Below are positions 3,074 through 57,101 of a DNA stretch of 64,000 nucleotides, piece by piece (position 1 is the first letter of the stretch; every line of letters begins with the position of its first letter). Source of the stretch: Natronococcus sp. A-GB1. Its GTDB lineage: Archaea; Halobacteriota; Halobacteria; Halobacteriales; Natrialbaceae. The DNA lies in assembly GCF_029688845.1 (NCBI RefSeq), contig NZ_JARUKW010000013.1, positions 1 through 64,000 of the forward strand, written 5' to 3'. The notes under the pieces are model-generated. The model had not been told where the DNA came from and ran no database searches. It worked only from the letters and a program-made list of their open reading frames with translations. The translations under genes and the position numbers were made by a program.

Positions 3074-3310
3074 TTAATCTAGTTTATTTTCAGACAAACT
3101 CTGGGCTATTAGGGTTTGAGAGTCGTGGAACCCGTCGATCGTTTTGGGAATCTCAGTTTCAGTATTCGCAGAGTCTCGCCACTCTTTATATGCAACTTCA
3201 ATGTCAAAGTCTAGGCCACTGCCAGCCTCAATAACGCTACGAGCAAGGGCCTGAGCTTCCGGGTTTGGATCCCCTGCGTTCGGCATAGCCTCAGCAAGTT
3301 CCTTACTCAT
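3074..3310 (-). CDS. Candidate antitoxin of the PIN module
   Basis: 78 residues from the ATG at 3310. The frame is open further upstream to a GTG at 3457, but the upstream part is basic and unlike the rest, so the ATG is preferred. It begins MSKELAEAMPNAGDPNPEAQ; the middle reads SGLDFDIEVAYKEWRDS. Small, acidic, directly before the PIN gene and on the same strand, it has the place and size of an antitoxin. I do not recognise a DNA-binding motif, so the role rests on context. Confidence 0.5.
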   Translation of the reverse strand: MSKELAEAMPNAGDPNPEAQALARSVIEAGSGLDFDIEVAYKEWRDSANTETEIPKTIDGFHDSQTLIAQSLSENKLD

Positions 3311-37666: not shown

Positions 37667-38896
37667 ATGTCTCGAAGCCCGTCTATCCCCGACCGACCAC
37701 ACCGCGAGATCGACCCCGATCTCCCCGACGACGAGCGGCTCGATGCGCTTCGCGACCACTTCGAGGATCTCGTCGACATCAACGAGCAGCTCACGGAGCA
37801 ACTCGACGAGGCCGAGGGCCGCAGACAGCGCCTCCAGGAGAAGGCCAACCGAGTCGAACGCGAGAACGAGACGCTGAAGAGCTCCTCGCTGTATATCGCG
37901 ACCGTCGAGGACGTGATCGACGAGGAAGTCATCGTCAAACAGCACGGCAACAACCAGGAGGTCCTCACGGACGTTTCCCCGCGGCTGCTCGAGCGCGTCG
38001 AGGCCGGTGACCGCGTCGCCGTCAACGACTCCTTCGGGATCCAGACGATCCTCGAGGCCGAGACCGACGCCCGCGCCCAGGCGATGGAGATCACCGAGCG
38101 TCCCGAGGTCGACTACACTGACATCGGCGGGATCGACGAGCAGGTCAAGGAGGTCCGCGAGGCCGTCGAACAGCCCCTGACGAACCCCGAGCTGTTCGAG
38201 GAGGTCGGCATCGACCCCCCAAGCGGCGTGCTCCTGCATGGTCCGCCGGGAACCGGGAAGACGATGCTCGCGAAGGCCGTCGCCAACGAGACCGACGCCA
38301 CGTTCATCAAGATGGCCGGCTCGGAACTGGTTCGCAAGTTCATCGGCGAGGGCTCCCGGCTCGTTCGTGACCTGTTCGAGATGGCCCGCGAACGCGAGCC
38401 GGCAATTATCTTCATCGACGAGATCGACGCCGTCGCCACCACCCGAACCGAGTCGAAGACGTCGGGCGACGCCGAGGTTCAGCGGACGATGATGCAACTC
38501 CTCAGCGAGATGGACGGCTTCGAGGCTCGCGGCGAGATCCGTATCATCGCCGCGACCAACCGCTTCGACATGCTCGACCGCGCGATCCTCCGCCCGGGCC
38601 GGTTCGATCGGCTCATCGAGGTCCCCGAACCCAGCCAGGAGGGTCGCGAGCAGATCCTCGCGATCCACACCCGTGACATGAACGTCGACGACGAAGTCGA
38701 CTTCGCCGCGCTGGCCGAGGAGACCGACGGCTACTCCGGCGCCGAGATCGAGAGCCTCGCGACCGAGGCCGGTATGTTCGCCATCCGGAACGACCGCGAG
38801 GAGGTCCGCCAGCAGGACTTCCTCGACGCCTTAGAGAAGATCGAGGAGGACGACTCGAGCGACGTGATCTCGTCTGCGGGCTACTTCTACCAGTAA
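37667..38896 (+). CDS. pan: Proteasome-activating nucleotidase
   Basis: 409 residues. An N-terminal coiled coil (about 25-70: LRDHFEDLVDINEQLTEQLD) and OB domain (about 75-130) precede an AAA+ core. LLHGPPGTGKTMLAKAVANE (Walker A, about 190), AIIFIDEIDAVATTR (Walker B) and IIAATNRFDMLDRAILRPGR (second region of homology) are complete. The C-terminus ends AGYFYQ, an HbYX motif (F-Y-Q) that docks into the 20S proteasome and opens its gate. It unfolds substrates by ATP hydrolysis. Followed by an unusual hairpin array. Confidence 0.95.
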   Translation: MSRSPSIPDRPHREIDPDLPDDERLDALRDHFEDLVDINEQLTEQLDEAEGRRQRLQEKANRVERENETLKSSSLYIATVEDVIDEEVIVKQHGNNQEVLTDVSPRLLERVEAGDRVAVNDSFGIQTILEAETDARAQAMEITERPEVDYTDIGGIDEQVKEVREAVEQPLTNPELFEEVGIDPPSGVLLHGPPGTGKTMLAKAVANETDATFIKMAGSELVRKFIGEGSRLVRDLFEMAREREPAIIFIDEIDAVATTRTESKTSGDAEVQRTMMQLLSEMDGFEARGEIRIIAATNRFDMLDRAILRPGRFDRLIEVPEPSQEGREQILAIHTRDMNVDDEVDFAALAEETDGYSGAEIESLATEAGMFAIRNDREEVRQQDFLDALEKIEEDDSSDVISSAGYFYQ

Positions 38897-39320
38897 GCGC
38901 GAAGTTTTGCTCTACGGGTGCGCCTTCGGCGCACCTCGGCAAAATCTTCAAAAGAGTGCGAAGCACTCTTTTGCACGGGGCGATTCCCCCGGAATCGCTT
39001 GCAGTCGGCGCGAAGTCGTTCGAAACGGCGAAGCCGTTTCGTGATGCCAAAAATCTTCTATTTTTGAGCACGCCGACGACCTCGCGGGATCAAAGATCCC
39101 GCTCAGATTCGGTTAAAAGCACTCCTCTTTCCTCTCCGCTCGCTTCTCTCGCTCCGAATCAATCGTCGGCCCGCTCGCAGCCGACGACTGCTCGCGGTGA
39201 GTGTCATGAACCGCCTGCCCTTTCCCGGCTCGCGACGTCCTCATCTCTTCGGACGCCGCTCGCGGCCACGGCGCAACCGAGGATCGCAACGCCTTACGCC
39301 GCGGGAGCCCTATCCCGGCC
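38897..39320. repeat. Intergenic array of five 8-3-8 hairpins downstream of pan
   Basis: Five perfect inverted repeats, each 8 bp + 3-base loop + 8 bp: 38917-38935 (loop ttc), 38952-38970 (gaa; stem extends to 11 bp), 38980-38998 (ccc), 39022-39040 (gaa) and 39084-39102 (aaa). The first is nested in gttttgc...gcaaaat. No gene is seen from 38897 to 39320. The array may be a structured 3' UTR, a terminator cluster or a decayed mobile repeat. Confidence 0.85.
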
Positions 39321-39800
39321 ATGAGCATGATCCGAGTCGTCTGGGGTACCGGTTCGGGACCCACGAAGATGGCCTCCTACGACGCCGCGCTAGCCGACGC
39401 CGGTGTCGAGAACTATAACCTCGTCGCAGTGTCGTCGGTGATCCCGGCCGACACCGACGTCGAAGCCGTCGGAACCGCACCCGACCTCGGACCTGCGGGC
39501 GACCGTCTGACCGTCGTCGAGGCTCGAGCGACTACCGCCGGGCCGGGCCGGGCGAGCGCTGCACTCGCGTGGAACCAGTCCGTCGACGGCGGGCCGGGGC
39601 TGTTCTACGAGACCGCCGGCGAGATGGACCGCGACGACGTCGAACGCCGCGTCCGTGAGGGGCTCGAGGCGGGCCAGGAGCTGCGCGACTGGCCGTTCGA
39701 CGACCCGAGCGTCGTCGTCGAGAGCAGCCGAGCCGATGCCGGGACGTACACGACGGCGCTGGCGTTGGCTGTGTACGGCGAGAGCGAGCCGATCTGCTGA
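39321..39800 (+). CDS. pdaD: Pyruvoyl-dependent arginine decarboxylase
   Basis: 159 residues, ATG at 39321 (another ATG two codons on). VWGTGSGPTKMASYDAALADAG opens the fold. NYNLVAVSSVIP (about residues 33-44) holds the Ser-Ser cleavage site at which the proenzyme cuts itself to make the pyruvoyl group. ALAWNQ and GLFYETAGEMDRDDVERRV follow as in other archaeal PdaD. It converts arginine to agmatine for polyamine (and archaeosine/agmatidine-related) metabolism. Confidence 0.9.
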   Translation: MSMIRVVWGTGSGPTKMASYDAALADAGVENYNLVAVSSVIPADTDVEAVGTAPDLGPAGDRLTVVEARATTAGPGRASAALAWNQSVDGGPGLFYETAGEMDRDDVERRVREGLEAGQELRDWPFDDPSVVVESSRADAGTYTTALALAVYGESEPIC

Positions 39801-56567: not shown

Positions 56568-57101
56568 CGGTCCCTTTTCGGCTCGAGAGCGCCGTCGGCA
56601 GAGTTAGCTTCGCTCGCGATCCCCTGCCGTTCGCACGGCTTGCGGGACCAGCGGTCCGGCACTGGAAAAAGCGGTTTCGGCAACCGGAGAGCGTTCGCGG
56701 GTTCGACGCACGACTCGGGATGGAAAACGCATCCGAGTTCTCGTCGGCCCCTTTGGAATCGGACGAGCTCGAGCCCGAACGGTTCCCGGGTGGACGGCCG
56801 ATCCCTGGAGCATTCGGTGGAAGCGGCCGTTTTCTACGGTCGCTCGCCGCACATCGGTCGACTGCCTGCCCTTCCCCGGGGAGCGCGACTCTCACTGTCG
56901 CTCGAGTCGCGCTCCCGGCCGTAAACTGCGGGACTGCGGCTTTCGTCAGTGGCGTTCGTTCGTGATACAGAAATTATGTTAACGGCGTCCGCTCGACGAC
57001 CTGCCGCGTGGTCCCTTTTTCTCGTCGAGTTCGCCCCGCTCACCCTCCTCGAAAAACCTGCATCAAAAAGCCGCTCGTTCGCTTCGCTCACTTGCAGCGC
57101 T
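56568..57101. other. Intergenic, holds a duplicated gene end
   Basis: No gene. At 56977-57005 there is a near copy of the radical SAM gene's 3' end found at 57103-57132 (aacggcgtccgctc, one mismatch, acgacctgcc). Also an inverted-repeat-rich cgctcgttcgcttcgctcac segment. Confidence 0.5.

Follow-up and report, generated by a model that had tools for sequence, protein, structure and literature searches.

Hairpins between pan and pdaD

The DNA analyzed here, referred to as the window, is a stretch of 64,000 nucleotides from Natronococcus sp. A-GB1. The gene for the proteasome-activating AAA ATPase, pan, is found at 37667..38896 on the plus strand (open reading frame; Pfam AAA, AAA_lid_3, and Prot_ATP_ID_OB_C) and terminates with the stop codon TAA at 38894-38896. 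The next gene, pdaD, is located on the same strand at 39321..39800 and encodes a pyruvoyl-dependent arginine decarboxylase (open reading frame; Pfam PF01862). The original prediction placed five perfect hairpins, each with an 8-bp stem and a 3-base loop, in a row after pan. All five were found at the predicted positions: hairpin 1 at 38917-38935 (GGTGCGCC-TTC-GGCGCACC), hairpin 2 at 38952-38970 (AAGAGTGC-GAA-GCACTCTT), hairpin 3 at 38980-38998 (GCGATTCC-CCC-GGAATCGC), hairpin 4 at 39022-39040 (GAAACGGC-GAA-GCCGTTTC), and hairpin 5 at 39084-39102 (GCGGGATC-AAA-GATCCCGC). Hairpin 3 is 8-3-8, but this geometry does not describe the whole set, since the maximal stems of hairpins 2 and 4 are 11 bp (38949-38973) and 9 bp (39021-39041), respectively. 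The accurate rule for the five hairpins is a stem of at least 8 bp and a loop of 3 bases. A sixth hairpin, at 39048-39066 (CAAAAATC-TTC-TATTTTTG), has a single mismatch beside the loop.

Seven perfect palindromes that follow this rule were found in the 64-kb window, and five of them occupy a 186-bp stretch behind pan. Positions 38897-39320 were shuffled 3000 times with the dinucleotides preserved, and no shuffle produced more than one such palindrome; the excess over shuffled DNA was thus confirmed. Genome-wide clustering was gauged on a 400-kb sample of the window's genome, where five palindromes within 200 bp were found at two places, the pan locus and L075:8745-8940. The proposed search for clusters of 8-3-8 palindromes therefore yielded one further five-hairpin place in this sample, and what the relatives carry is a dispersed repeat.

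The five hairpins are not one uniform array. They are parts of a nest of three elements, designated here as E1, M2, and M3, and each hairpin is a component of a repeat that is dispersed and keeps its backbone, which contradicts the earlier statement that they are not a copied repeat. Two things make the stems seem unrelated: the hairpins fill separate slots in the three elements of the nest, and the letters of a stem may change freely while the pairing holds.

Element E1 and its position

E1 is a dispersed multi-hairpin element of approximately 215 bp, found in the window at 38900..39269 on the plus strand by alignments and by a covariance model (R1) that matches 38901-38976 and 39077-39269. 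The window copy begins 3 nt past the pan stop codon, ends with ..CGCGGCCAC, and is 370 bp long because it carries the insert M2. The skeleton of E1 is CGAA-TTTTGC-TCTGC-[A]-TCG-GCAAAA-TTCGAT-AAAAGCACTCCTCC..[B]..TCGTCGGCCCGCTCGC-[C]-GCTCGCGGT..GCCTGCCCTCCCCCG-[D]-CCCGGCCAC, where A to D are the four hairpin slots, and the same skeleton recurs with different stems behind pan of other genera. Hairpin 1 is hairpin A, which occurs in a few discrete stem types. It is nested within the outer stem CGAAGTTTTGC / GCAAAATCTTC, and M2 supplies part of GCAAAATCTTC. The remainder of E1, at 39107..39269 on the plus strand, consists of AAAAGCACTCCTC.., a degenerate slot for hairpin B, TCGTCGGCCCGCTCGC-C-GCTCGCGGT, GCCTGCCCT..CCCG, hairpin D, and the terminal CGCGGCCAC.

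E1 was detected in 112 of the 121 Natrialbaceae genomes by DNA search and, using R1, in 132 of 194 genomes of Halobacteria, representing 49 of 65 genera. Each of four genomes of the Natrinema type gave between 29 and 38 matches to R1, some of which are weak or reverse-strand echoes. Few copies are present in the window's genome: the pan locus, C45:8169-8454 behind a TFS gene, and C54:221842-222114 behind a gene for a TbsP-like regulator, together with fragments at C5:56776 and C5:119695. Positions 56776-56922 of the window hold a decayed remnant of E1 in which chiefly the end with hairpin D survives (..CTGCCTGCCCTTCCCCGGGGAGCGCGACTC..GAGTCGCGCTCCCGGCCG), with no stop codon directly before it. 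A search of Rfam with the window sequence and one typical E1 copy returned no family near threshold, neither E1 nor M3 was found described in the open-licence literature, and nothing was annotated at the matches in the plasmid records that were inspected. E1 is apparently an undescribed, widespread element family of the salt-loving archaea.

Copies of E1 at the same locus in different genomes are 81% alike, and copies within one genome 78%. A grouping of the copies by genome, as expected from recent spread or homogenization, was not seen in this comparison. Since same-locus copies are slightly more alike, most E1 copies appear to be old and inherited in place. With copies within one genome only ~78% alike, no recent movement of E1 was seen, and no empty site for E1 was established from very close relatives.

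The position of E1 relative to genes was determined for 145 copies. Of these, 116 start at most 6 nt past a stop codon; 117 were assigned to an upstream gene on the same strand, and 116 of the 117 start at -4 to +6 nt of the stop codon, with offsets of 0 nt in 40 copies and 3 nt in 39. A further 19 copies begin 30-53 nt (one at 96 nt) ahead of the start codon of a divergently oriented gene, and thus just outside the promoter. The nine copies left unassigned by the script include some that also adjoin a stop codon. The genes upstream of E1 include those for Pan, ribosomal protein L10e, TFS, and a TbsP-like regulator, as identified with Pfam. We take other upstream genes, named from C-terminal sequence without Pfam confirmation, to encode DNA polymerase D, EngB, and others.

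No target motif was recognized for E1 beside stop codons: the only preference is for A-rich sequence, which is a consequence of TAA and TAG. For 62 copies the gene order was examined and found to be +E1+ in 32, +E1- in 18, -E1+ in 6, and -E1- in 5, with one undetermined. A bias toward convergent genes, which would have marked E1 as a two-way terminator, was rejected on these counts, as only 18 of the 62 copies lie between convergent genes. Either selection spares E1 only at harmless sites, flush with gene ends and promoters, or E1 has a role there. Most copies of E1 are now passed on at a fixed position after the same housekeeping genes, as stable 3' neighbors.

Behind pan, E1 is found in Natronococcus, Natrinema, Haloterrigena, and Halopiger, and is missing in most of the genomes examined, including the nearest relatives, whose Pan proteins are 98% identical. 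In two near relatives (L004 and L036) the first 120 bp past the pan stop codon contain an apparent decayed start of E1 (TTATTCTGCG / CTTTTACTCTACGCG) together with other hairpins.

Nested modules M2 and M3

M2 occupies 38945..39106 on the plus strand, is 107 bp long without M3, and has the ends TCTTC..CTCAG. The same module is present at loci L012, L316, L318, L319, L320, L323, and L311, and the interval 38945-39110 matches other genomes as blocks with sharp edges. As an insert, M2 separates GCAAAA from the TTCGAT/AAAAGCAC part of E1; these two are contiguous in most E1 copies. It contains hairpins 2, 3, and 5, the last of these being its final hairpin, and a broken hairpin, GTCGGCGC-GAA-GCGCCGAC. 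Paired changes were found in hairpin 2 (GTGC/GCAC in the window, GCGC/GCGC in relatives) and in hairpin 5 (GGATC/GATCC, replaced in relatives by GGAGC/GCTCC and GGAAGC/GCTTCC). The stem of hairpin 3 is nearly constant in relatives, with loops of CCC, GGA, TTC, and AAA.

M3 (39016..39070, plus strand) is a 55-bp unit of two hairpins with the structure TCGTT-H1-TGATGC-H2-GAGCA. Its insertion point, GAAG^C, lies at the tip of one of the 8-3-8 hairpins of M2. H1 is hairpin 4 and H2 is the sixth hairpin; the latter is a perfect 8-3-8 hairpin at L002/L119 and at L312, unlike the mismatched copy in the window. The backbone TCGTT-H1-TGATG-H2-AGCA is shared across the copies, and the stems change as pairs. 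Genomes G028, G011, G044, and G038 carry M2 without M3, and loci L316, L319, and L323 lack exactly positions 39016-39070. The empty site reads ..GGCGCGAAG|CGCCGACGACC.. in G028, and the filled site in the window reads ..GGCGCGAAG|TCGTT..GAGCA|CGCCGACGACC... Positions 39016-39070 are therefore a 55-bp insertion into a hairpin tip without target duplication. A still larger nest was found inside another copy of E1 in genome G064. At L002/L119 an E1/M3 nest is followed closely by the end of contig C54, which consists of a long G run and then GC-rich sequence and is perhaps an assembly artefact.

M3 was also found at a Ser|Gln boundary within genes for TnpB of the IS1341 type (Pfam OrfB_IS605). In these genes the empty site is CAGTCAAGT|CAGCGAGTT (L368), and the filled sites (L364 and others) have exactly TCGTT..GAGCA in between, with no duplication. 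The TnpB loci concerned are L340-L350 and L360-L389, from Natronorubrum aibiense and others, with the insertion in L340-L350 at approximately position 2001 in the orientation of M3. M3 is thus a frame-shifting 55-bp unit at the same boundary in many genes. In most of 11 M3-bearing copies the 3' part of the TnpB gene is long and open, and four are shortened. The dN/dS ratios between pairs of M3-bearing copies were determined to be about 0.01-0.32, mostly near 0.1, and values of 0.12 and 0.10 were obtained within one genome. The presence of M3 in these genes may reflect independent late or repeated insertions, intron-like splicing, bypass, or a split protein. A bulge-helix-bulge structure, as used in archaeal splicing, was considered for M3 in TnpB and discarded, as the fold is unconvincing.

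The ends of the transposons at L340-L350 (~1640-1675 and ~3125-3170, in the orientation of M3) have near-terminal palindromes whose stem sequence is completely different from copy to copy and yet paired, as in CCCACGAC-TTCA-GTCGTGGG versus CCCCGCCC-TTCA-GGGCGGGG. Freely changing stems are thus usual among the single-strand-type elements of these genomes. Neither M3 nor E1 has ends that match those of the TnpB elements examined (L340-L350).

Pairing, related elements, and proposed origin

The pairing of E1 was assessed with 23 copies, in which 97.2% of 1048 cells are paired. When the pairing partners were slid against one another the paired fraction fell to ~40%. Two-sided changes were found in 19 of 46 pairs, comprising 106 two-sided cells versus 29 in shuffles, and the covariation score was reached by none of 500 shuffles. 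The suggestion that structure is kept while the sequence of the stem changes is supported by these results, and hairpins 2 and 5 themselves show such paired changes. One-sided changes amount to 18 of 228 (8%) in E1, versus 56% in SRP RNA and 36% in RNase P RNA, both taken from the same family of archaea and treated by the same method. Mismatches of G.T and A.C number 18 and 32 in E1, and 50 and 5 in SRP RNA, and therefore neither strand of E1 is favored as RNA in the manner of SRP RNA. The perfect hairpins of E1 have 3-nt loops in 125 of 263 cases, and the two commonest loops, TTC (34) and GAA (26), are reverse complements of one another. Because G-U intermediates are nearly absent despite strong covariation, the palindromes appear to be kept as DNA, or on both strands. 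As judged from the sequences, the pattern points to palindromic DNA that would be under a constraint on shape or subject to copying from arm to arm. A need for both strands as RNA could give the same pattern; convergent genes, however, are a minority. Selection for structure as RNA, one form of the original proposal, is thus unsupported by a pattern that is almost purely Watson-Crick, and a generating mechanism, the other form, was borne out as being involved.

Short multi-copy palindromes, often just behind stop codons, are also found in the REP, BIME, and REPIN elements of bacteria. The stems of REP elements are conserved in sequence, and E1 differs in having four hairpin slots with free stems. 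The closest described systems to E1, M2, and M3 are the PATEs and the SMR-A repeats of Haloquadratum (PMC3119063). PATEs are palindrome-associated transposable elements of Haloquadratum and Natronomonas that, like E1, M2, and M3, are haloarchaeal and non-coding. They lack inverted terminal repeats, as do E1 (CGAA..CCAC) and M3 (TCGTT..AGCA), and have palindromes near their termini, which correspond to hairpins A and D of E1 and to H1 and H2 of M3. The absence of target duplication in PATEs was found here for M3 only (L368 versus L364; L316 versus the window). The terminal-only forms of PATEs are 52 bp long, compared with 55 bp for M3, and both systems share a preference for insertion into other mobile elements. 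The palindromes of PATEs are related to those of IS605-type transposons; for E1 and M3 the comparison covered the TnpB elements of L340-L350, whose ends differ from theirs. The stems vary freely in E1, M2, and M3, in distinction to PATEs. SMR-A is ~110 bp long, causes no target duplication, and resides inside the palindromes of other elements, as M2 does in E1; it has prominent inverted terminal repeats (PMC3119063), which M2, with the ends TCTTC.. and ..CTCAG, lacks.

We favor, with some reserve, the interpretation that the cluster behind pan consists of nested, non-autonomous hairpin DNA elements of the single-strand type that resemble haloarchaeal PATEs. Dispersal, nested insertions, and a conserved backbone with free but nearly always paired stems are observed, and exact empty sites of M3, lacking any target duplication, are seen in two types of target. 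In the proposed sequence of events, E1 would be an old dispersed element of ~215 bp in the Halobacteria that adjoins gene ends, M2 would have entered the outer stem of the first hairpin of E1, and M3 the tip of a hairpin of M2. The units may move, or may once have moved, as single-stranded DNA hairpins recognized by shape and backbone rather than by stem sequence, presumably by an enzyme of the Y1/HUH type supplied in trans, as with the IS200/IS605 elements and PATEs of haloarchaea. Such units would land in the palindromes of others of their kind. Two reasons may account for the upkeep of perfect arms: recognition that depends on the folded DNA, or template switching in replication, with one arm serving as template for the other. 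No mobilizing enzyme and no host function were found. Several points stand against the nested-element interpretation: none of the three elements could be linked to a transposase, the ends of M3 differ from those of the TnpB elements examined, E1 showed no recent movement, and the stop-codon rule is no known property of PATEs and is explained by no target motif. Neither this rule nor a class-wide, long-term presence at housekeeping loci is described in the parts of the PATE report consulted (PMC3119063).

If the nested-element interpretation is correct, many intergenic hairpins of haloarchaea would be nested DNA elements rather than terminators or RNAs, with shape and a short backbone as their chief conserved properties, and they would offer a natural setting in which to study how single-stranded DNA is recognized by shape and how template switching keeps up palindromes. 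Covariation would then be no proof of RNA structure here, and the near absence of G-U pairs would be the distinguishing sign. The strict placement of E1 at stop codons is a specific rule, so far without explanation, that the genetic tools already available for haloarchaea could put to the test.

The main rival to the mobile-element interpretation is a host function at the 3' end of genes, with E1 as a terminator or as a barrier at the mRNA 3' end into which mobile hairpins occasionally insert. This we regard as possible, on balance unlikely. The start of E1 flush with stop codons agrees with such a role, as do its retention at the same loci across genera (pan and the genes for L10e, TFS, and TbsP-like proteins), the TTTT directly after the stop codon, and the 503 mapped 3' ends of Haloferax volcanii that are preceded by hairpins (PMC7237163). 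The U-tract terminators of archaea, which may or may not include a hairpin, are likewise positioned behind stop codons (Haloferax, PMC7237163), but E1 lacks a long U tract, its T run being only 4, and nearly all of its covariation is Watson-Crick. The near lack of G-U pairs and of one-sided changes, together with the patchy presence behind pan, counts against a required RNA hairpin, and the 19 copies before divergent genes also speak against this rival. A further, rather doubtful reading is that E1 is a class-wide DNA element that acts at gene ends through folded DNA and not RNA, has long been held within a few bases of the stop codons of housekeeping genes, and serves as a landing place for hairpin-only mobile units.

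It is improbable that the hairpins are kept by mutation alone, through a switch of template during replication that repairs one arm from the other without any function. Template switching between arms is a described mechanism (PMC8794818) and would account for two-sided Watson-Crick changes without intermediates and for reverse-complemented loops (TTC/GAA) on the same stem. It does not account for the stop-codon rule, for the dispersal, for insertions as discrete units, or for a backbone that is conserved between hairpins, and the limitation of hairpin A to a few discrete stem types also speaks against it. Template switching is likely a contributing process that helps to keep the arms perfect and not the whole explanation. 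Loop inversion between orthologues was considered as a proof of template switching and set aside as suggestive only, with 4 non-independent pairs. That E1 is a structured non-coding RNA from one strand is very improbable: its conserved multi-helix fold has z values of -2.8 in a typical copy and -5.5 in the window copy, but both strands fold well, no described family is matched in Rfam, and the G-U-assisted pairing on one strand that marks SRP RNA and RNase P RNA was not found.

Other hairpin clusters are present in the window's genome. L075:8680-8960, on contig C54, holds five hairpins with stems of at least 8 bp and 3-base loops on a different backbone (GTGGTT-hp-TCATCAA-hp..), and apparently represents a further family of two-hairpin units. 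L070:7160-7390 and L072:3660-3880 are paralogous copies of another cluster, each with three hairpins of the same stem and loop size; the stems are identical in the two copies and the loops partly different (GCT/GAT and TGC/TGT).
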